DNA from: Halovivax cerinus
GTDB taxonomy: Archaea; Halobacteriota; Halobacteria; Halobacteriales; Natrialbaceae
Assembly: GCF_024498195.1 (NCBI RefSeq)
Contig: NZ_CP101824.1
Coordinates: 3,596,001-3,660,000, forward strand
Direction: 5' to 3'
Length of the DNA: 64,000 nt
Part shown: positions 29,006 through 64,000 of the stretch, piece after piece
Position numbering within the stretch: the stretch's first letter is position 1
Layout of the letters: each line of letters starts with the position of its first letter
The notes under the pieces: model-generated
Databases searched by the model: none
What the model saw: the letters and a program-made list of their open reading frames with translations, nothing else
What the model was told of the DNA's origin: nothing
Translations under genes and position numbers: made by a program

Positions 29006-29323
29006 GGCGATCGCGGCCAGTCGCGATCCTCCACCGGGTTGTAGACGAAAATCGACCGACGAGACGGACCCGCAACCCGTTGCCCGTTGGGATCAGATTT
29101 CAACGGCCTACGTCCGATCGAGGAATCTCGGGAATACGGCTGTTTGAGTACCTCTACGGAGGAATCAGTGTTAGTGGAGAATCGAGTCGTGGACGCATGG
29201 GCGCTGCAGGATTTGAACCGAAGCAAGACGGTCTGCTCGCTCCGCTCGCAGCTGCGACTTGCAGGGCTCAAATCCTTCGCGTTCCACGTACCCGAGGCTC
29301 GCGTTATTGCTCGCCTCGAAAAG
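29006..29323. other. Intergenic region with tRNA-derived repeat and hairpins
   Basis: Between the antiporter and tRNA-Arg. It contains a copy of the last 22 bases of the tRNA gene at 29198-29219, a CGCTCGCTCCGCTCGC-type hairpin element near 29232-29255 and a 6-base-stem hairpin GAGGCTCGCGTTATTGCTCGC near 29296-29316 (20 bases shown). No gene. Confidence 0.6.
29198..29219 (-). repeat. 22-base copy of the tRNA-Arg 3' end
   Basis: An exact copy of bases 29324-29345, which are the acceptor 3' strand and T-arm of the tRNA-Arg gene. On the minus strand it lies 126 bases downstream of the gene. Such direct repeats at a tRNA 3' end are the usual trace of integrase recombination, but only about 100 bases separate them here. 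Confidence 0.8.
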
Positions 29324-29398
29324 TGGGCGCTGCAGGATTTGAACCCGCGACAACTTGGTCCGAAGCCAAGCACTCTGTCCAGACTGAGCTAAGCGCCC
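29324..29398 (-). tRNA. tRNA-Arg, anticodon UCG
   Basis: A 75-base cloverleaf on the minus strand. The acceptor stem pairs GGGCGCT at the 5' end (29398-29392) with AGCGCCC before discriminator A at 29324. The anticodon stem CTTGG/CCAAG encloses loop CTTCGGA with anticodon TCG, reading CGA. The T-arm contains the GGTTCAAAT element. No intron is needed to fold it. CCA is not encoded, as usual in archaea. Confidence 0.95.
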
Positions 29399-53953: not shown

Positions 53954-54276
53954 ATGCCACCCGATGTGGCGACACCATCTCGAATAAATTTACCGTAACA
54001 TAAAATAGAATTTTGTACGACGGCGAATGGCTTCGTCCCCTCCGTCCCGTTTGGTCTCACGCAGTCGACGGAAACAGTCGAAACCATTATAACCCCACGA
54101 ACCAAATTGTTACATGAGAGTAAACCTCGGAAGCAAATCGGTGCGCTTTTTTATCACTTCACCGTAGCCGTTGCTCCGGCGTTCGTCTCGGCCGCGAAAC
54201 GGTCTTCGACGGAGCGAACTCGGTTCGCGGGCGACCGCGAAGCGGTGTGAGAGACGACGCGGGATCCGTGATCCAC
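53954..54276. other. Intergenic region with divergent promoters
   Basis: 323 bases between the secreted protein (minus strand) and the Rid protein (plus strand). AT-rich AATAAATTTACCGTAACATA at 53985-54004 and TTATAACC near 54090 may be promoter elements. No gene. Confidence 0.45.
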
Positions 54277-54789
54277 ATGCAAAAGACAGTCATCGCCCCC
54301 GCCCAGGGCCACGTCGAAGCTGGCGAACTTGACGGACCACAGTGTTCGCTGGCCGTCGCGACGCACCACCCGGATTGCACGCGCGTCGAGATCAACGGTC
54401 TCGTCTATCCCGACGGGACCGCCCGCGTACAGACACGCGAACTGCTCGGACTGATCGAGAAGATCCTCGGTGATCTCGACGGATCGATGGCCGATATCGT
54501 CAGACTCCGCTGGTACGTCGACGACACCGTCCTCGACTCGGCCACTCGCGGCGCGATCCACGAAGTCCGTGCTGAGTTCTTCGACTACCCGCAGTTCCCG
54601 GCGAGTTGCATGATCGCCGTCCCGTCCGGCGAGTCGGCCGCGACCGATAGCGAACCGACGGGTAGCGCGTCGACCGGTGGCAACGATCCGTCGGGCGGCG
54701 AGATCGAACTCGAGGCGACCGCGATCGTCCCGGCCGACGGCAGCTGGACCGTTCGAACGATCACGGGCGACGAAACGACCGATGCGTGA
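54277..54789 (+). CDS. Rid-family (RidA/YjgF-like) protein
   Basis: A 170-residue protein with a Rid fold: VIAPAQGHVEAGELDGPQCS, RVEINGLVYPDGTARVQTRE, LLGLIEKILGDLDGSMADIV and LRWYVDDTVLDSATRGAIHE, then EFFDYPQFPASCMIAVPSGE. RidA proteins are usually imine deaminases with a conserved Arg in FPARSC; here the corresponding segment is FPASCM, with no Arg, so classic imine deaminase activity is doubtful. A 40-residue Ser/Gly/Asp-rich insert (GESAATDSEPTGSASTGGND) lies before the last strand, an unusual feature. Starting at ATG 54277 (MQKTVIAPAQG) fits the family. Confidence 0.75.
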   Translation: MQKTVIAPAQGHVEAGELDGPQCSLAVATHHPDCTRVEINGLVYPDGTARVQTRELLGLIEKILGDLDGSMADIVRLRWYVDDTVLDSATRGAIHEVRAEFFDYPQFPASCMIAVPSGESAATDSEPTGSASTGGNDPSGGEIELEATAIVPADGSWTVRTITGDETTDA

Positions 54790-54804
54790 GAGACACCGTA
54801 CACG

Positions 54805-55356
54805 ATGAGTGATGAATACCCACGACACGACGAAGCGGAATCGAACGGAACCCGATCGATCGACCCCGACTCGCTTCGCGAACGGGCCGACGTCGAATTC
54901 GAGGAAACGACGACCGTCCACGAGGATCGCGACCACTTCGAATCCCACGGCCACGATGTCGCCGTCGTCGGCGTAACGAACGGCGCGGGAGACGTTTGCC
55001 TGTTCGTGAACGAAGACGCCGCGTTCGCGGGCCTCCCGTGGGCCGCCGTGGCGGACGGCGACTGGATCACCGGCGCCCACAGTTCGATAGAGGACTGGTG
55101 TACCGGCGAAGGCGTCGACATCGTCGTCGAGGAACCGATCCTCGTCCGCCGCGTCGAACACGAGGTGGCGGGCGAGGACGGCGTGAAAGCGACCACGCAC
55201 ACGATCCTGTTTCGCGCCGCACCCGTCGAGTCCGACCCGGACCTGTCGAACGTGACCGGCGCCGAGGACTGGACGGCAGGCTGGTTCGACGGCGTTCCGA
55301 ACGACGCCGACCAGACGCCACCGGACGTCGCGGCGGACGTTCGACGGTTCGTGTAA
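54805..55356 (+). CDS. Degenerate NUDIX-like protein
   Basis: A 183-residue protein. After an acidic leader (about 1-45), VAVVGVTNGAGDVCLFVNED, GLPWAAVADGDWITGAHSSI and EEPILVRRVEHEVAGEDGVK, then THTILFRAAPVES, give the order of strands and loops found in NUDIX hydrolases. The NUDIX box G-x5-E-x7-R-E-U-x-E-E-x-G-U is missing: in its place is a short Trp/Ser-rich loop with no Glu array. So it may bind nucleotides without hydrolysis. It starts 15 bases after the Rid-protein stop, so they are likely co-transcribed. Confidence 0.55.
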   Translation: MSDEYPRHDEAESNGTRSIDPDSLRERADVEFEETTTVHEDRDHFESHGHDVAVVGVTNGAGDVCLFVNEDAAFAGLPWAAVADGDWITGAHSSIEDWCTGEGVDIVVEEPILVRRVEHEVAGEDGVKATTHTILFRAAPVESDPDLSNVTGAEDWTAGWFDGVPNDADQTPPDVAADVRRFV

Positions 55357-55497
55357 GATAGTCCATCGGTGGCTGGGAGCGTGTCCGTCCGATGGGGTTC
55401 GTGATCGGTCCGTCTGTTCGTGACGGATCGAGGGTCGACTATCTCGCACGCCGAGAGCCCGGCCAAACGTTTTGTCGGCTGTCGGTGTCACGTCCCT

Positions 55498-56847
55498 ATG
55501 TCCGCGTCGAAGCCGAACGTCCTCCTGATACACTGTCACGACCTCGGTCGGTACCTGGGCTGTTACGGCGCCGACGTCGAGACACCGAATATCGACGCGC
55601 TGGCCGACGACGGGATCTGCTTCGAGCGCCACTTCGGGACGGCTCCGCAGTGTTCGCCGAGCCGCGGGAGCCTGATGACCGGCCGGTACCCCCACGTGAA
55701 CGGGTTGATGGGACTCGCGCACGGACACTGGGAGCTCCACGACGACGAACAGATCCTCCCGCAGTACCTGGCGGCGGACGGCTACGAGACGCACCTCTTC
55801 GGCTTGCAGCACATCACGCAGGATACGGACCGCCTCGGGTACGAGTACGTCCACTCCGAGGGGAACCTGTATCCGGGGGTCTCCCCCAGCGTCCACCAGG
55901 TCAACCGGGCGAAGAACGTCACCGACGTCGTCACCACGTTCCTCGAGAAGGGGGCGTTCGACGCGCCGTTTTTCGCCTCCGTTGGGTTCTTCGAGGTACA
56001 CCGCGTCGAGGAGGCGAACGGGCGGTACGGGTTCCAACACGATCTGTACGAGGCTGACGAACCGGACGACGTCACGCCCCTCCCGTATCTCCCTGACCGC
56101 CGCGGCATCAGACAGGACCTCGCGGAGATGCACGGGATGGTGTACGCGATCGACGACGCGATCGGCCGCATTCGGGCCTGTCTCACCGAGACCGGCCTCG
56201 TCGACGAGACGCTCGTCGTCTTCACCACCGAACACGGAATCGCGTTCCCGCGCGCGAAAGGGACCTGTTACAACCCGGGCATCGAGGCCGCCCTGATCGT
56301 TTCACATCCCGACCGTGCCAGCGGGGGCCGGCGGGTCGAGGAACTCGTAAGCAACGTCGACGTGCTCCCGACGCTGCTCGACGTCCTCGACGTCCCGGTT
56401 CCGGCCGATCTGAACGGGCGAAGTTTCGCGCCGCTCCTCGCCGGCGATCCGTACGAGGCGCGCGAGGAGATCCACGCCGAGATGACCTGGCACGACATGT
56501 ACAATCCGATCCGCGCCATCCGGACCGAGCGCTTCAAGTACATTCGAAATTTCTGGTACCTGCACCACGTCTACCTCCCGCGGGACGTCTTCGCGAGCGA
56601 AGCCGGCCGCGAAGTCCGTGAAGCGGAGGCCGTCCCGCTTCGTCCGTTCGAAGAACTCTACGACCTCCGGGAGGGACCGACGGAGATGGACAACGTGGCG
56701 GACGAACCGCGATACGACGACCGGCGTCGTGAACTCGCCGCCCGCCTACACGACTGGATGGTCGAGACCGACGATCCCCTGCTCGACGGGCCCATCCCGC
56801 CGGGCGGATTCTCGTCCATCATGGCCTGGCCGGACGAGGCCACGTGA
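55498..56847 (+). CDS. Sulfatase
   Basis: A 449-residue protein of the alkaline-phosphatase superfamily. It begins MSASKPNVLLIHCHDLGRYL and continues ADVETPNIDALADDGICFER, GTAPQCSPSRGSLMTGRYPH; the CSPSR motif carries the Cys that is converted to formylglycine, so a sulfatase-modifying enzyme is needed elsewhere. Other parts are DETLVVFTTEHGIAFPRAKG (metal-binding region), EELVSNVDVLPTLLDVLDVP and FEELYDLREGPTEMDNVADE. No signal peptide is visible, so it may act in the cytoplasm. The natural sulfate ester is unknown. ATG 55498 is chosen; an upstream extension to 55420 is not conserved-looking. Confidence 0.9.
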   Translation: MSASKPNVLLIHCHDLGRYLGCYGADVETPNIDALADDGICFERHFGTAPQCSPSRGSLMTGRYPHVNGLMGLAHGHWELHDDEQILPQYLAADGYETHLFGLQHITQDTDRLGYEYVHSEGNLYPGVSPSVHQVNRAKNVTDVVTTFLEKGAFDAPFFASVGFFEVHRVEEANGRYGFQHDLYEADEPDDVTPLPYLPDRRGIRQDLAEMHGMVYAIDDAIGRIRACLTETGLVDETLVVFTTEHGIAFPRAKGTCYNPGIEAALIVSHPDRASGGRRVEELVSNVDVLPTLLDVLDVPVPADLNGRSFAPLLAGDPYEAREEIHAEMTWHDMYNPIRAIRTERFKYIRNFWYLHHVYLPRDVFASEAGREVREAEAVPLRPFEELYDLREGPTEMDNVADEPRYDDRRRELAARLHDWMVETDDPLLDGPIPPGGFSSIMAWPDEAT

Positions 56848-56921
56848 TCGGTTCCGGACCGTAGGGTCACTCCCTGCCCACGGACCCGGCCTCGGGTCAC
56901 TCACCGCCCACGAACCAGGCC

Positions 56922-57890
56922 TCATTCGTCTCGCACGATAGCGACGCTCGCGAGTTTGTCCCCCGCGTTGACGGTCGCGTCCCGGGTGAGTGCGTACAGG
57001 ATACCCGCCCGGTCGGTCGTGACGTTCTGGAGCGTCTCGTAGGTCGTGGGATCGTAAACCGTGCCAAGCGCCGTACCGGCGGGCATCACGCTCCCGAGTT
57101 CGAGAGCGGGCTTCGGTCGGAAGAGTCCCGACGCCGATGCAGTCACCTGCCCAAGATGGTTGCGCGCGACTGTCTGCTCACGATCGGTGACGGTGCCCTC
57201 CAGCATTCCCAGGGTGCGACAGACAGCGAAGAGTCCCTCGACACCCAGCTCGATCGGGTCCTCCTGGAGTTGCCGGCTGTGGGCGAGTTCGGGGGTGATG
57301 GCGGGGATCCCCTCGCGATCGGCAACGACACGAAGTTTCCCCGCGAATCCGCGGCGGTGCCACTCGTCGGGGGCGTCCTCGCCGGCCGTTTCGGCCAGCA
57401 ACAGATCGGTGCCGAACGCCTCTGCGAGTGCACGCGATTCGTGGCTCCCCTCGAGATAGACCACGTGCGGGTACATGTCGGGACTGCCGGTGTGGAGGTC
57501 GACGATGGCGTCCGCCGTCTCGACGTGCTCCCAGAGCGTGGCCGCCATGCGCTGGTGAAGCGAGCCGTTCTCGTCCCCGGGCCACACCCGGTTCATGTTC
57601 GGGTTGACGCTGTCGATGACCTCGGGGGTCGTGTACGACACCCGATCGAACGTGAGCGGATCGGCCACGGGAACGGCGACGATTCGACCGGCGAGTTCAC
57701 CGGAGAGCCTGTCGTGAAACCGTTTGAGGACGGCCGTGCCGTTCACCTCTCTACCGTGCTGGGCCGCCTGAACGTACAGGGTGGGCCCGGCCGTCCCGCC
57801 GTCGTACGTGTGGATCGTCGTCGCGACGTCGACCCCCGAGGGGAGCGTCGCCAGCGTCCGTCGGTCCGCAGCGTGAAACTCTGCGACCAT
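56922..57890 (-). CDS. Succinylglutamate desuccinylase/aspartoacylase family protein
   Basis: A 322-residue zinc-dependent deacylase with a carboxypeptidase-like fold. The zinc site is AAQHGREVNG (His and Glu) and DLHTGSPDMYPHVVY (Asp, His). Other parts are NPNMNRVWPGDENGSLHQRM, FGTDLLLAETAGEDAPDEWH, and LGTVYDPTTYETLQNVTTDR with a late biotinyl-lipoyl-like domain. Family members remove acyl groups from amino acids; the substrate is unassigned. ATG 57890 (MVAEFHAADRRTLATLP) is used, since the upstream extension is arginine-rich and not conserved. It is convergent with the sulfatase. Confidence 0.88.
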   Translation of the reverse strand: MVAEFHAADRRTLATLPSGVDVATTIHTYDGGTAGPTLYVQAAQHGREVNGTAVLKRFHDRLSGELAGRIVAVPVADPLTFDRVSYTTPEVIDSVNPNMNRVWPGDENGSLHQRMAATLWEHVETADAIVDLHTGSPDMYPHVVYLEGSHESRALAEAFGTDLLLAETAGEDAPDEWHRRGFAGKLRVVADREGIPAITPELAHSRQLQEDPIELGVEGLFAVCRTLGMLEGTVTDREQTVARNHLGQVTASASGLFRPKPALELGSVMPAGTALGTVYDPTTYETLQNVTTDRAGILYALTRDATVNAGDKLASVAIVRDE

Positions 57891-58034
57891 GGGTGGAGTT
57901 CCACGGTCGGCCGTATGTACGTAGTGGAACGCGTCACTGCGAGAACACGCCTGCCCGCGCGCGTTCGACGTCAGCCGTCGGACAGCGACCTGGACGGTGC
58001 CTACTTCCGTGCGTCCCGCCAACGTCCGCTACAC

Positions 58035-58499
58035 GTGAGTGGATCATCGTTCGAGTCGTTCGACCACGAATCGCACATGCGACGCACGTTCGATCTCGCC
58101 CGCGAGGCGGCGGCCCGGGGCGACGAGCCGTTCGGAAGCGTCCTCGTCCGCGACGACGAGGTCGTGCTGACCGATTCGAATCGTGTCGTTTCCGAGGACG
58201 ACATCCGCCGCCACCCGGAACTGCACCTCGCCCACCTCGCAGCGCGCGAGATGACTCCCGAGGAACGCGCGGAGACGGTCATGTACACCAGCACGGAACC
58301 GTGTCCGATGTGTGCCGGCGGGATGGCCACTACAGGGTTCGCCCGCGTCGTCTACAGCGTCGGCGCCGACGACCTCGCCGGCCTCACCGGGGGGACGCCC
58401 TCCGTCCGTGCGGCGGACGTCCTGGGTGATCGAACCGACGTCGTCGGTCCCGTTCTGCTCGAGGAGGGGCTCGCCGTCCACGAGTCGTACGGCTGGTGA
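58035..58499 (+). CDS. Nucleoside (cytidine/guanine-type) deaminase
   Basis: A 154-residue zinc-dependent deaminase. RTFDLAREAAARGDEPFGSV begins the domain; the active-site motifs are HPELHLAHLAARE (HPE, the variant of H-x-E) and TSTEPCPMCAGGMATTGF (P-C-x-x-C), which bind the catalytic zinc. ARVVYSVGADDLAGLTGGTP and VVGPVLLEEGLAVHESY follow. It is of the tRNA-adenosine or guanine deaminase-like subgroup; the substrate is unknown. The GTG at 58035 (VSGSSFESFDHESHMRRTF) is the likeliest start; ATG 58077 (MRRTF) is an alternative. Confidence 0.85.
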   Translation: MSGSSFESFDHESHMRRTFDLAREAAARGDEPFGSVLVRDDEVVLTDSNRVVSEDDIRRHPELHLAHLAAREMTPEERAETVMYTSTEPCPMCAGGMATTGFARVVYSVGADDLAGLTGGTPSVRAADVLGDRTDVVGPVLLEEGLAVHESYGW

Positions 58500-58580
58500 C
58501 CACGTTCGACGCCGCGGGTGGGCGACTCGCGGATTCGTCGAATCACCACCGTTTTCACCGCCCGTCCCGTCGGCGCGGAC

Positions 58581-59126
58581 ATGGGAAACCCAACGGCAAC
58601 CCTGCACACGAGTGAGGGCGACATCGAGATCGAGCTGTACGAAGAGCGGGCCCCACGAACCGTGGAGAACTTTCTGAACCTGGCCGAACACGATCCGGCG
58701 GCGGACGACGATCCCGCTCCGGATACCACGACCTGGGCCGATCCCGAATCCGGCGAAACCCGCGGCGACTCGCTGTACGCCGGTGTCCCCTTCCACCGTG
58801 TCATCGAGGGGTTCATGATCCAGGGTGGTGACCCGACTGGCACCGGCCGCGGCGGACCCGGCTACCAGTTCGACGACGAGTTCCACGACGACCTCCGCCA
58901 CGACGGTCCCGGAAAACTCTCGATGGCCAACTCCGGGCCCAACACGAACGGTTCGCAGTTCTTCATCACGCTCGACGCCCAACCGCACCTGGACGACCGC
59001 CACGCCGTCTTCGGCGAGGTCACCGACGGCATGGACGTCGTTCGCGATATCGGTTCGGTCGACGTCGACGCCAACGACCAGCCGGTCGAGGACGTCGAGA
59101 TCGAATCCGTCACCCTCGATCGGTAA
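58581..59126 (+). CDS. Peptidyl-prolyl cis-trans isomerase (cyclophilin)
   Basis: A 181-residue cyclophilin from ATG 58581 ([20 protein letters not shown]). Family marks are [20 protein letters not shown], the catalytic loop [20 protein letters not shown], then [40 protein letters not shown]-like residues 127-145 and [20 protein letters not shown]. The Arg of HRVI and the NGSQFFIT segment are the active site. It has a short acidic insert after the first helix. It folds proline-containing proteins in the cytoplasm. The sequence has no signal peptide. Confidence 0.96.
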
Positions 59127-59524
59127 CTCGCCGTCCACTCCGACGATTCGTTCTCGACGGGCCACGCCCCAGCACGGACGCGAGCACCGCCGAAACTCCA
59201 TCGTACCGATAGTACTCGCGAGGCGCCATCGGCCGTACTCACACCCATGGTCGGCCGGGACGGATTCCGCACACGTCTGAAGGCGTGGACTTCCTCCATG
59301 CAGTTCTGTGGAACCGGAACGCCACTTACCTGTAAGAGTTCTAATGGGAATGGAAATATTAATAACCTCGTAGTCCATAGACGGAGGTACCTGACGAGAG
59401 TCAGGGATGGGGGGTCGGTGAAGCTGATGGGGGTCCGCTTCACCGACGTTTTCTCTTTCACCGTTCGACAACGAGTCACATCGCTGGCACCGGTAACTGC
59501 GCTCCGCTCGCTCCGCTGGCAAAT

Positions 59525-59655
59525 TCTCCACCAAAAGACCGCCCGCAGCAACGCACCCGCTCTGCCGAACACCGAAACGCACATCCACTCCCCCCAGCAA
59601 TCATCAGTTGCATTCGTGCGAGGGTAGCCAAGCCAGGCCAACGGCGGTGGGCTTA
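59525..59655 (+). repeat. 131-base direct repeat, copy 1, with tRNA-Leu 5' half
   Basis: Matches 59712-59842 at about one mismatch in 131 bases (offset 187). It contains the 100 bases preceding tRNA-Leu and then the tRNA 5' half; similarity extends about 20 bases further upstream with small indels. Confidence 0.85.
59618..59655 (+). pseudogene. Truncated tRNA-Leu copy, 38-base 5' half
   Basis: Bases 59618-59655 equal the first 38 bases of tRNA-Leu (59805-59842): acceptor 5' strand GCGAGGG, D-arm and half the anticodon arm, ending inside the anticodon. It cannot fold as a tRNA. Confidence 0.88.
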
Positions 59656-59711
59656 CCACGCCGGGACCTTTTGCTGCGCTTCACTCGCATCCGCTCGCTC
59701 CGCTCGCAAAA

Positions 59712-59842
59712 TCTCCACCAAAAGACCGCCCGCAGCAACGCACCCGCTCTGTCGAACACCGAAACGCACATCCACTCCCCCCAGCAATCATCAGTTGCAT
59801 TCGTGCGAGGGTAGCCAAGCCAGGCCAACGGCGGTGGGCTTA
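59712..59842 (+). repeat. 131-base direct repeat, copy 2, overlapping tRNA-Leu
   Basis: Second copy of the repeat at 59525-59655. Its last 38 bases are the 5' half of the intact tRNA-Leu gene. Confidence 0.85.
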
Positions 59843-59889
59843 AGACCCGCTCCCGTAGGGGTCCTTGGGTTCGAATCCCAACCCTCGCA
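59805..59889 (+). tRNA. tRNA-Leu, anticodon UAA
   Basis: An 85-base class II tRNA. The acceptor GCGAGGG pairs with CCCTCGC before discriminator A at 59889. The anticodon stem GTGGG/CCCGC (with one G-T pair) encloses loop CTTAAGA with anticodon TAA, reading TTA. The long variable arm CTCCCGTAGGGGTC and the T-arm TGGGTTCGAATCCCA complete it, as expected for leucine. No intron is present. Confidence 0.96.
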
Positions 59890-59895
59890 TACCGC

Positions 59896-59939
59896 CTCGA
59901 ACGTTAGTGAGAGGCGTGTCTGCGTGACGCGGGATTCGA
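59896..59939. repeat. 44-base hairpin repeat, copy A
   Basis: Begins CTCGAACGTTAGTGAGAGG and recurs at 60074-60117 with two mismatches. The first part folds into a hairpin (GCCTC with GAGGC at 59894-59915). Confidence 0.8.
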
Positions 59940-59985
59940 ATCATGCCAGTCGCAGCGCGAACGAAGTGAGCGAACGTCTGGAGGT

Positions 59986-60008
59986 GGTTCGAATCCCAAC
60001 CCTCGCAT
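59986..60008 (+). repeat. 23-base copy of the tRNA-Leu 3' end
   Basis: An exact repeat of 59868-59890, which is the T-arm and acceptor 3' strand of tRNA-Leu, beginning GGTTCGAATCCCAACCC. It lies 118 bases downstream in the same orientation. Confidence 0.85.
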
Positions 60009-60073
60009 GCGAGAGACGAACGGTAGTGAGTCTCTCGGTTTTGCGAACGGCGAGCGAGGCGAGCCGTGAGCGT

Positions 60074-60117
60074 CTCGAACGTTAGTGAGAGGCGTGTATG
60101 CGTGACGCGTGATTCGA
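60074..60117. repeat. 44-base hairpin repeat, copy B
   Basis: Second copy of the repeat at 59896-59939, same orientation, followed directly by a (GA)n run. Confidence 0.8.
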
Positions 60118-60223
60118 GAGAGAGAGAGAGAGAGAGAAGTCGAAACCCTCCAGAGAACAGCAGGGACGTCCGTAGCGGTGCGTAGATACCCCGTGCGTCA
60201 CGCGGTCCAGAACGACACTGTGA

Positions 60224-60871
60224 CTACCAGGGTGTATCGTCGACGTACGCGTCGATCACCTTCGTTTCGGCGCGTCGGAGGTGTTCCGCGGCTGTGCGAC
60301 GAGTGACGCCAAGTTCGTCCCCAACGACCTGGACAGTAACTTCCCGTGGACGCTCGTAGTAGCCGCGGTCGTGGGCGATCGTGATCGCCTCCCGCTGTCG
60401 CGGTGACAACGACGGCCTCGCTTCGAACGGCGACTGTCCCCGGTCTCCACCTGTATCCGGCTCGTCGAACGAGTGCTTCGATTCGACGGTAACCGAACTC
60501 TCGTCGACCAGATCGCGGTAGAGTGCCGTGAGGTCGTCCGGGTCGAGTGCGAGCACTTGGACGAGCTTGGTGCCGCGTTCGTATCGTAGCGGAGGAACGA
60601 GGAGACAGCCGTGACGTCGGAGGGAGCGATCCACGGTGCCGCCCTCCTCGCCGAGGCAGTCCGCGGTGACGGCCAGGGTTCGATCGCCACGGTCGATTCG
60701 GTCGCTGACGCCGACCCGCTCGTCCACCGCAGCGAGAACGGCCGCCGGGTCGCCCCGAATCGACACGAGGTCCGCGTGATCGTTACACCAGAGTGAGACG
60801 GTGGTGTCGGTCCCGGCGGTCGGTTCCCCGTACGGACCAGCAGGTTCGAGACGAAACGTGGCTTCGTGCAT
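60224..60871 (-). CDS. HTH-10 (Bat-type) regulator divergent from hutU
   Basis: A 215-residue regulator from ATG 60871 (MHEATFRLEPAGPYGEPTAG). The N-terminal domain (about 1-140) reads TTVSLWCNDHADLVSIRGDP, then SLRRHGCLLVPPLRYERGTK and VLALDPDDLTALYRDLVDES; it may bind a ligand. The C-terminal domain holds the HTH-10 motif: LSPRQREAITIAHDRGYYER, then VVGDELGVTRRTAAEHLRRA. It lies back to back with hutU (85 bases apart), so it is a candidate regulator of histidine use, responding to histidine or urocanate. No palindromic operator is obvious between them. Confidence 0.85.
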   Translation of the reverse strand: MHEATFRLEPAGPYGEPTAGTDTTVSLWCNDHADLVSIRGDPAAVLAAVDERVGVSDRIDRGDRTLAVTADCLGEEGGTVDRSLRRHGCLLVPPLRYERGTKLVQVLALDPDDLTALYRDLVDESSVTVESKHSFDEPDTGGDRGQSPFEARPSLSPRQREAITIAHDRGYYERPREVTVQVVGDELGVTRRTAAEHLRRAETKVIDAYVDDTPW

Positions 60872-60956
60872 GTGGACGGCTCGTCCCGGGGGTACTTGAA
60901 CCCACCTCCGTGTGGCGGGGTGAGACGTTTCGTGGTACGCGGAAACAGTGTCGCCT

Positions 60957-62693
60957 ATGCAGCACTCTAGCGAGTCGTTCGATCGCGGCGAACCGAGTGA
61001 CACCTGGCGGGCGTACCAGGGTGCGTCGACTGGCACCAAGATCGAGTGTGAGGGATGGCGTCAGGAGGCCGCCCTCCGAATGCTCAACAACAACCTCGAC
61101 CCCGAGGTGGCCGAGAAACCCGAGGAACTCGTCGTCTACGGCGGGACCGGGAGCGCGGCCCGAAGCTGGGACGCGTACGACGCCATCGTCGAGGAGTTGC
61201 GGGAGCTACCGGACGACGAGACGTTGCTCGTTCAGAGCGGCAAGCCCGTCGGACGATTTCGGACCCACGAACGCGCGCCGCGGGTGCTGATCGCCAACTC
61301 GAACCTCGTGGGCAAGTGGGACGACTGGGAGCACTTCCACGAACTCGAGGCCGAGGGCAAGATCATGTACGGCCAGATGACCGCGGGCTCGTGGGCGTAC
61401 ATCGGCACCCAGGGGATCATCCAGGGAACGTACGAGACGCTCGCCGCGCTCGCACGCGCAGAGTACGACGAGACCGATCTCGAGGGCCGCATCGTCGTCA
61501 CCGGTGGGCTCGGCGGGATGGGCGGCGCCCAGCCGCTGGCCGTCACGATGAACGGCGGCGTCTGCATCGCGGCGGAGGTCGACGAAGAGCGCATCGACCG
61601 CCGGATCGAGACGGGCTACTGTCAGGAGAAGACCGACGACCTCGACGAAGCGATCGAGCGCGCCGAGGAAGCCGCTGCAGCGGGCGAATCCTACAGCGTC
61701 GGCGTGCACGTGAACGCCGCGGACATGCTCGAAGCGATGCTCGAACGTGAGTTCGTGCCCGACATCGTCACGGATCAGACGAGCGCGCACGACGCCCTCG
61801 AGGGCTACTACCCGTCGGGGTACACCGTCGCCGAGGCCGATGCGCTCCGCGACGAGGACCCAGATCGCTACGTCGCGGAGAGCCTCGACACGATGGAACG
61901 CCACGTCCAGGCCATCCTCGACCTGCAGGATCGCGGCGCGGTCGCGTTCGAGTACGGGAACAACATCCGCGGCCAGGTCGAGGACGAGCGCGGGCTGGAA
62001 ACGGCGTTCGACTTCCCCGGCTTCGTCCCGGCGTACATCCGCCCGCAGTTCTGCGAGGGTCGTGGCCCCTTCCGCTGGGCCGCACTCTCCGGCGATCCCG
62101 AGGACATCTACCGCACGGACGAGGCCGTCCTCGACCTGTTCCCTGAGAAGGACTCCCTGCGACGCTGGATCGACCTCGCCCAGGACCAGGTGCAGTTCCA
62201 GGGCCTGCCCTCGCGAGTATGCTGGCTGGGGTACTCCACCGACGACGATGGCCTGACCGAACGCGCCCGCTTCGCCCTGCGGATCAACGACCTCGTCCGC
62301 GAGGGCGAGATCACGGCCCCGATCGTCGTCACCCGTGACCACCTGGACGCCGGTTCGGTCGCGAGCCCCAACCGGGAGACCGAGGCCATGCGCGACGGCA
62401 CCGACGCCGTGGCCGACTGGCCGATCTTGAACGCCCTGCTCAACTGCGCGGCGGGCGCGGACATCGTCTCGGTCCACGACGGCGGCGGCGTCGGCATCGG
62501 CAACGCCCTGCACACGAACAACCACGTCGTCCTCGACGGGACCGAGCAGGCCGCCGAGACCGCAAAGCGCGTGTTCACGACGGACCCTGGGATGGGCGTG
62601 ATTCGCCACGCCGACGCGGGCTACGAGGAGGCCCTCGACACCGCTCGCGAGTCGAACGTCGCGATCCCCATGCGCGATCGAGGTGGAGACTGA
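60957..62693 (+). CDS. hutU: Urocanate hydratase
   Basis: A 578-residue enzyme of histidine breakdown, converting urocanate to imidazolonepropionate with bound NAD+. The parts in order are [60 protein letters not shown], the NAD-binding [60 protein letters not shown], and the C-terminal [20 protein letters not shown]. All family motifs are intact. The ATG at 60957 gives [20 protein letters not shown]. The stop overlaps hutG by one base. Confidence 0.97.
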
Positions 62694-63685
62694 TGGCCGA
62701 AGCCACGATTTCGGCGCCACCGAGCTGGGAGTCGCCGGCGAGCGATCCGAACGACGAGACGTTCGGCGACGTGATCGAGTCCGCGACCCTGGATGCGAAG
62801 GGCACGCCGGCGGACGCGGCGGCCGCAGGCGAGTTCGACGCCGTCCTCCTCGGCGAACCCTACGACGGCGCCGTCATCGGCCGGCGCGGCGCTCGTGAGG
62901 GACCCGGTGCGATCCGCGAGGCGCTGGCCGGCGTCAAGACGCATCACGTCGACGCGGGTCCCGTCGGGCGCGTGGGGGACCTGGGCGACGTGGCGTGGCC
63001 GACGGACGCCGTGGATCTCGACGAACAGGCCGACGTCGGCGACGTCCAGGCGCTCGCCGAGTCGGTGACCGCCGACCTCCACGCGACTGACGCCCTGCCG
63101 GTCTTCCTCGGTGGCGACAACTCCCTCACCGTCCCGAACGTCGCGCCCCTCCTCGAGTCGGGGTCGGTCGGCGTGCTCAACTTCGACGCTCACCTCGACG
63201 TGCGCGAGCCCGCGGACGGGCCGTCTTCCGGGACGCCCTACCGGCAGTTGCACGACCGCGGCCTCGACGCCTACGCCGTCGTCGGTGCGCGCCACTTCGA
63301 GACGTCGACGACGTACGTCGAGTGGCTCCAGGGTGAAGGCGGCGCGGTGGTGACCGCAGAGGCGATCGGTTCGGATCGCGACGCGGCGCTCGACCGGGCG
63401 TTGCGGACGGTCTCCGGCGTCGACCACCTCTACGTCAGCGTCGACCTGGACGTCCTCGACGCGCCGGCGGCGCCGGGGGTCAGCGCGCCGACACCCGGTG
63501 GCCTCACCGCACGAGAACTCTTCGCGTGCGTGCGAGAAGCCTGTGCCGACGACCGTCTTGCCGGGTTCGAGGTCGTCGAGTGCGCGCCCGGCCTGGACGA
63601 TGGTACTCGGACGGCGCGGGTGGCCGCTCGGACGGTCGCGCACGCCCTCGCCGGCTCCGGTTCCGGGGGTGAGGCCCGTGTCTGA
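62693..63685 (+). CDS. hutG: Formimidoylglutamase (arginase family)
   Basis: A 330-residue manganese enzyme that splits N-formimidoyl-L-glutamate into glutamate and formamide. Metal ligands are in [37 protein letters not shown] (Asp, His, Asp) and [20 protein letters not shown] (Asp, Asp). The position between hutU and hutI sets the assignment over other ureohydrolases (arginase, agmatinase); GGDNSL replaces the usual GGDHS, so one metal-ligand His is Asn. The start overlaps the hutU stop by one base and its stop overlaps the hutI start by eight bases. Confidence 0.93.
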
Positions 63686-64000
63686 CCTCGACGCGGTCGT
63701 CCACGACGCCGCGGAGGTCGTCGTCGGTCCGGACTCGGACGCTACCGGCACGGACGTGACCATCGAACGCCACGAGGACGCAGCCGTCGCGATCGTCGAC
63801 GGGTCGGTGGCCGCCGTCGGGCCCACGGACGAGGTGACGCGCGAGTATCCGCCGGCGACCGCCGAAACGACTATCGACGCCTCCGGGCAGAGCGTGATTC
63901 CCGGCTTTGTCGACTCCCACACCCACAGCGTCTTCGCGGGCGATCGCTCGGACGAGTTCGCCGCCCGACTTCGGGGGGCGGACTACCAGGTGATCCTCGC
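63678..64000 (+). CDS. hutI: Imidazolonepropionase, 5' part only
   Basis: GTG 63678 opens a frame that runs to the end of the window with 107 codons visible. The translation begins (M)[19 protein letters not shown] and shows the amidohydrolase pattern [39 protein letters not shown], where HTH is the metal-binding motif of the TIM-barrel amidohydrolases. It hydrolyses imidazolonepropionate to formimidoylglutamate, the substrate of HutG upstream. The overlap of eight bases with hutG shows coupling. The rest lies beyond the window. Confidence 0.95.

Follow-up and report, generated by a model that had tools for sequence, protein, structure and literature searches.

A haloarchaeal tRNA-Leu(UAA) gene flanked by an RtT-like trailer array and a truncated tRNA-Leu copy

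In Escherichia coli the RtT RNA is released during the processing of tyrT. Trailer repeats that carry tRNA 3' ends are already known from this gene (Rfam RtT), and a similar array is found at E. coli tyrV (L234, NC_000913), where three exact copies of the last 19 bases follow the tRNA with a period of 178 bp and are annotated as the ncRNA RttR. In the Rfam consensus of RtT (RF00391) the end copy, AUCCuuCcC, forms a stem with an inverted copy, GgGaaGGAU, and 10 of the 10 consensus pairs are formed in the E. coli fold. Partial copies of tRNA genes are also left by integration. Archaeal tyrosine recombinases generate att duplications at tRNA 3' ends, in which a partial 3' copy lies downstream of the tRNA on the same strand (PMC8371274); pTN3-like integrases use the 5' half of the tRNA as attB (PMC8371274), and in Caldiarchaeum a 5' fragment of tRNA-Thr is found beside a recombinase element (PMC3293823).

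In this work we analyzed the surroundings of a tRNA-Leu(UAA) gene in a window of 64,000 nucleotides, the whole stretch of DNA under study, taken from a haloarchaeal genome (G000; 3.9 Mb, single contig). We describe the sequence, architecture, conservation, covariation and distribution of the units that flank this gene, as well as their displacement by integrated elements, and consider how both units would be transcribed and processed and what they might do. On balance we lean towards a gene that lies between two conserved units of tRNA origin, independent of each other: a truncated tRNA-Leu upstream and an RtT-like trailer array downstream. Both probably give small RNAs.

The tRNA-Leu(UAA) locus

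The features recognized in the window are the following.

59573-59583, plus strand: promoter-like box CGAAACGCACA of the truncated copy, conserved before both copies in 11 genomes of six genera; putative promoter
59617-59655, plus strand: truncated tRNA-Leu, a 5' half ending in the anticodon (CTTA), identical to 59804-59842; one junction in 11 genomes
59656-59678, plus strand: 3' extension CCACGCCGGGACCTTTTGCTGCG, with ACGCCGGGACCTTTT invariant in the aligned genomes while the loop and flanks vary
59665-59724, plus strand: terminator-like element, GACCTTTTGC followed by a hairpin and GCAAAATCTCCACCAAAAG, also right after apparent stop codons in loci L185 and L187; putative terminator
59690-59842, plus strand: second copy of the 5' flank and 5' half, within the intact locus (98% direct repeat)
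59804-59890, plus strand: tRNA-Leu(UAA) gene (ARAGORN; Rfam RF00005, 47.9 bits)
59891-60008, plus strand: complete trailer unit (hp1, inverted T-arm, hp2, copy of the tRNA 3' end), from repeats, fold and covariance model
59893-59916, plus strand: hp1, a predicted hairpin directly after the tRNA; hairpins in the equivalent position at other tRNAs
59931-59941, plus strand: anti-T, an inverted copy of the T-arm region that pairs with 59986-59997 and covaries with the tRNA
59986-60008, plus strand: direct copy of the tRNA 3' end (G53 to the discriminator, plus T), 100% identical to 59868-59890
60071-60117, plus strand: truncated second unit (hp1 and anti-T), 94% identical to 59893-59939
29207-29277, minus strand: hp2 unit after tRNA-Arg(TCG) (29323-29398), the other tRNA of the window; 86.1 bits with covariance model R1

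The direct repeat on the 5' side (59503-59655 and 59690-59842) is 153 nt long, with 98% identity and a spacing of 187, and the last bases of its first copy, CTTA, fall within the anticodon; the 131-base repeat of flank and front of tRNA-Leu, stopping in the anticodon, that an earlier note on this DNA had pointed out is part of it. The same note had described a 23-base copy of the 3' end of the gene 118 bases downstream, and this copy is indeed exact (59868-59890 and 59986-60008; 23 bp, 100%, spacing 118). To these we add three features: the inverted copy of the T-arm in the spacer, the truncated second unit, and the recurrence at other tRNAs and in other genera. Because the same arrangements are present in many independently sequenced genomes, an assembly error, an option that the note had mentioned, is very unlikely.

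Further upstream, at 59391-59460, an inverted repeat (GTCGGTGAAG..CTTCACCGAC) is followed by a T-rich stretch; it is perhaps a terminator or a small RNA, and it also occurs upstream of tRNA-Leu in relatives of the same genus (L020, L021, L023).

The upstream truncated tRNA-Leu

The 5' half resembles a small transcription unit because it combines a promoter-like box with an invariant hairpin and T-run, and is followed by a terminator-like element that is common in haloarchaea. The box CGAAACGCACA also precedes the intact tRNA, at 59760-59770, and nearly all the other Leu-UAA genes examined. In the predicted fold the extension and the 5' half can pair (AGGCC..CGGCG / CGCCG GG.CCU), and a run of U's follows. 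This hairpin and its T-run are invariant in the 11 genomes that carry the junction, where the loop and flanks have diverged; therefore covariation cannot support the stem. A promoter-like box, a hairpin and a U-run, as a terminator-ended small RNA gene would have, are present and conserved; the fold z-scores of the short forms are not significant.

Terminator-like elements of this kind, GACCTTTT, a hairpin and AAAATCTCCACCAAAA, were also observed in other haloarchaeal loci (L185, L187, L191, L194), and the one at 59665-59724 has no Rfam match. The sequence GGGACCTTTTGCTGCG was considered as a dispersed mobile repeat and discarded as such: it has one copy in the genome, and its tail is the terminator-like element, found also after stop codons.

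A pattern search across 392 genomes of the order found the 5' half joined to NNACGCCGGGACCTTTTGCTGCG in 10 of them. With model R2, at a threshold of at least 70 bits, the junction was detected in 11 of 121 genomes of the family, and ordinary tRNA-Leu matches reached at most 46 bits; one further genome, G256, scored 55.9 bits and is degenerate. These 11 genomes represent six genera (g1, g6, g9, g17, g19, g20), and the same junction is present in Natronosalvus hydrolyticus and Natrinema mahii, which makes Natrialbaceae the most likely family of the source genome. In several genomes the flanks of the two copies have diverged except for the box CGAAACGCACA. A hairpin of 65-70 nt is inserted into the D-loop of the truncated tRNA in G023 and G187. 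The 3' extension, which could not be kept by gene conversion with the intact tRNA, is nearly invariant.

Our preferred reading of the 5' half is an old tandem duplication that has been kept as a small transcription unit and has been homogenized in the source genome. Some caution is needed with regard to a unit that is kept, because the 5' half is absent from most relatives (it is limited to about 10% of the genomes of the family) and is decaying in G256.

The main rival origin is integration of the pTN3-like kind, or a fragment of the Caldiarchaeum type. In that case the 5' half would be the left scar of an ancient integration targeted to the 5' half of the tRNA, and the intact gene would have received its present promoter and 5' half from the incoming element, which would since have been lost. 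We consider this rather unlikely. In the described cases, as at this locus, the 5' half of a tRNA precedes an intact gene, pTN3-like integrases and the Caldiarchaeum fragment provide precedents, and the diverged flanks of the two copies in several genomes agree with such an event, as does the locus of G256 (L215, G256:C2:44907-46135). Here two degenerate 5' halves precede tRNA-Leu, and the stretches between them bear ORFs, including one for a small hydrophobic protein, an arrangement that may reflect decay or serial insertion. However, the tRNA-Leu locus differs from the described cases in that the 5' half and the tRNA are only 197-326 bp apart in the 10 genomes in which the spacing was measured, no recombinase is present, the junction is common to several genera, and a terminator-like element follows it. 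No element lies at the junction in any of the 10 genomes found among the 392, nor in G023, the eleventh clear case; the junction is invariant across six genera, as a dead scar would not be, and no 5' half was found by pattern in IMG/VR. The earlier note had proposed that relatives be compared for inserts between the repeats, and had accepted that the same arrangement without insertions in distant genomes would speak against its view of the halves as possible scars; none of the 11 genomes of six genera carries such an insert, which for the 5' half goes against that view.

Trailer units downstream of tRNA genes

The trailer unit consists of two hairpins, and the outer stem of the second one is formed by the inverted T-arm copy paired with the direct copy. 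The order of its parts is generally tRNA end, hp1, inverted T-arm, hp2 and the 3'-end copy from G53 to the discriminator. At the tRNA-Leu locus R1 gives 83.6 bits at 59930-59998 on the tRNA strand versus 26.8 bits on the opposite strand, and the tRNA together with one unit has a fold z-score of -6.4. A GA dinucleotide microsatellite at 60115-60137 cuts off the second trailer unit.

A search of the source genome with the tRNA-Leu locus led to many other tRNA genes. The surroundings of 41 tRNA genes were then searched for copies of their own 3' end, defined as a match of at least 18 of 20 positions within 900 nt downstream. Such copies follow 21 of the 41 genes (35 copies in total) and precede none of them (0/41); when tRNAs were paired with the downstream regions of other tRNAs, copies were found in 8 of 1640 combinations, so that the copy at tRNA-Leu is more than a chance match. 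The largest array, that of Gly-TCC, has five extra copies, and the spacing is mostly 99-180 bp. The inverted copy is also matched to its own tRNA: at least 9 of the 11 T positions agree in 128 of 168 units, versus 1.3% of shuffled spacers, and the own T was matched better than that of another tRNA in 1550 comparisons, versus 290 in the opposite direction. Consecutive copies are identical in 59 of 130 cases; the Gly-TCC array shows a two-unit periodicity, and identical units occur in Arg-CCT and in Gly-CCC. Two observations count against the small-RNA reading: the copies extend into acceptor bases for which the hairpin has no use, and at many tRNAs the units are absent or degenerate.

The predicted structure of the unit is well supported. 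In an alignment of 20 units from different tRNAs of the genome (A1), double changes were observed in 10 of 18 pairs, and double-change cells number 35, versus 7.7 (sd 2.1) after shuffling. Of all cells, 95% are paired, versus 17-56% with slid partners. The inner helix (helix 2), which is not derived from the tRNA, shows double changes in 5 of its 6 pairs, and pairing next to the T copy is kept by three alternative closings (GAAUCA/UGGUUC, GAGCC/GGUUC and GAACA/UGUUC). On the tRNA strand the apical loops of hp2 are mostly C-GNA-G, and this strand gives the better fold for both hairpins (97:32 and 100:27). Because the orientation of the unit relative to the tRNA is fixed, RNA would be the most economical carrier of this structure, with single-stranded DNA as the alternative. 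The fixed GNA triloops would suit single-stranded DNA hairpins too; the wobble count in the first 43 units, 36 G-U versus 8 A-C, favored RNA, but in a larger set the mismatches of the interior T/anti-T stem, with 17 G-U versus 28 A-C, give RNA no advantage.

R1 matched 46 of the 48 genomes sampled from the order and 0 of 199 other genomes of the phylum; the counts per genome are lower bounds, few candidates being scored in each. A tRNA is present in 59 of 60 loci taken from other genomes, which are not a random sample because they were picked as strong R1 matches. At the Leu-UAA locus the unit is kept at the same place in 5 of 5 genomes of the genus, and other families retain 0-3. Overall, roughly half of the Leu-UAA loci that were examined have no unit or a degenerate one, which again counts against the small-RNA reading.

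Other readings of the units were discarded. Rfam returned only the tRNA as a credible match at the locus, which left no known RNA family to which the units could be assigned. Phage records gave no unit match, a tRNA-Leu being the sole match of one search, and a pattern search of IMG/VR yielded no units, its two pattern matches being unrelated sequence without tRNAs; the units were thus not retained as virus-borne. Three R1 matches in G000 without an adjacent tRNA (G000:C1:2522927, 1782862 and 2067348; L198-L201) were at first sight orphan units, but each was traced to a unit that lies behind an integrated element. In the open-access literature, to which the search was confined, no description of these arrays was found.

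Each of these three matches follows a 3' end that has been displaced from tRNA-Thr(CGT), tRNA-Phe or tRNA-Tyr, at 11 kb, 51 kb and 18 kb from the respective tRNA, with a gene for a PF00589 integrase adjacent. The statement of the earlier note that integrases use tRNA 3' ends thus applies to this very genome. Since the three units lie beyond the integrase elements, at their far ends, and their tRNAs have no adjoining unit, integrated elements enter between the tRNA and the array, and displace the latter. On occasion, array copies may themselves act as attachment sites, because the copy in the tRNA-Tyr array is directly followed by the left end of a related element (81.6% over 87 bp).

The att duplications of this genome resemble the units in being partial 3' tRNA copies downstream on the same strand; unlike the units, their copies are kilobases apart with an integrase between them, and the element's own ends have no hairpin unit. 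At tRNA-Leu, the two copies are 118 bp apart, and no integrase was recognized by eye among the ORFs of 54000-64000. A private integrase scar was rejected for the 3' copy, given that structured units of this type occur at many tRNA genes across the order, and that a simple attL/attR duplication does not predict a covarying inverted partner. Of the proposal that the two halves are scars of separate events, their independence from each other stands, and a scar origin finds no support. In haloarchaea, a short downstream copy of a tRNA 3' end is by itself no evidence of integration.

An origin by accretion at attachment sites appears improbable. In this scheme tyrosine integrases would insert or maintain the 3' units, either as very small non-autonomous elements or as decoy attB sites, and one more 3'-end copy would be left per integration. 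It would explain why the copies span the T-loop to the discriminator, like attR fragments, why so many successive copies are identical, why integrase elements with a unit at the far end are found at three tRNAs of the genome, and why an element end abuts an array copy at tRNA-Tyr. Nevertheless, the covarying inverted T-arm, the conserved inner hairpins common to different tRNAs, the strand-oriented structure, the lack of units in phage records and, by pattern, in IMG/VR, and the location of the units nearly always beside a tRNA argue against it. Functionless repeats, multiplied by unequal recombination and homogenized by gene conversion (direct copies) and quasi-palindrome template switching (inverted copies), have a similarly low probability. 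In their favor, the periodicity of the Gly-TCC array and the identical units of Arg-CCT and Gly-CCC point to recombination, and the lack of a G-U excess fits template switching; the persistence across the order, the strand asymmetry and the compensatory changes in conserved inner stems outside the tRNA-derived part (helix 2) speak against them.

Comparison with RtT and possible roles of the units

The haloarchaeal units and the RtT repeats of tyrT/tyrV are both tandem repeats directly after a tRNA, each closed by an exact 3'-end copy, and in both an inverted copy pairs with the end copy to close a hairpin. They differ in that RtT, in the one operon examined, has a period of 178 bp, includes CCA in the copy and overlaps the tpr ORF, whereas the haloarchaeal units have a period of about 100-180 bp and no CCA, their copy starts at G53, and they occur at many tRNA genes. 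The RF00391 model gave no match up to E 5 on three haloarchaeal loci (L001, L009, L010), and three strong matches on the E. coli control; because of this, the haloarchaeal units look to be built like RtT without sequence homology, and not to be members of this family.

For the two flanking units that we favor as sources of small RNAs, the following course of events can be proposed. Transcription would read through the tRNA into the downstream array, where the new 3'-end copy would pair with the inverted copy and so keep it off the tRNA's own T-arm; RNase Z would then free the tRNA, and the trailer would be released as one or more small structured RNAs, as the RtT RNA from tyrT/tyrV in E. coli. 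Arrays would grow and shrink by recombination between direct copies. The upstream unit would have arisen by an old tandem duplication in the family, and would probably yield a short 5'-half RNA, which would be a rare instance of a separate gene for a tRNA half.

A broader interpretation is possible, and we hold it tentatively: tRNA trailer RNAs would form a system that spans the whole haloarchaeal order, in which self-matched arrays encoded in cis at many tRNA genes mimic and counter-pair the tRNA 3' end, tuning 3' maturation or giving stable small RNAs, together with a dedicated, terminator-ended 5'-half gene for tRNA-Leu(UAA), a similar architecture having arisen separately in E. coli tyrT. 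An RtT-like architecture that was apparently built independently, and is self-matched at many tRNA genes across an archaeal order, points to a solution that has recurred, be it in the maturation of tRNA, the production of small RNAs or integration at tRNA sites. The poorly understood RtT phenomenon becomes testable in genetically tractable haloarchaea.

As a minor observation, the E. coli RtT unit (L234) also has a GAGCG..AGCGAG hairpin, which resembles the tandem-GA hairpins of the haloarchaeal units.
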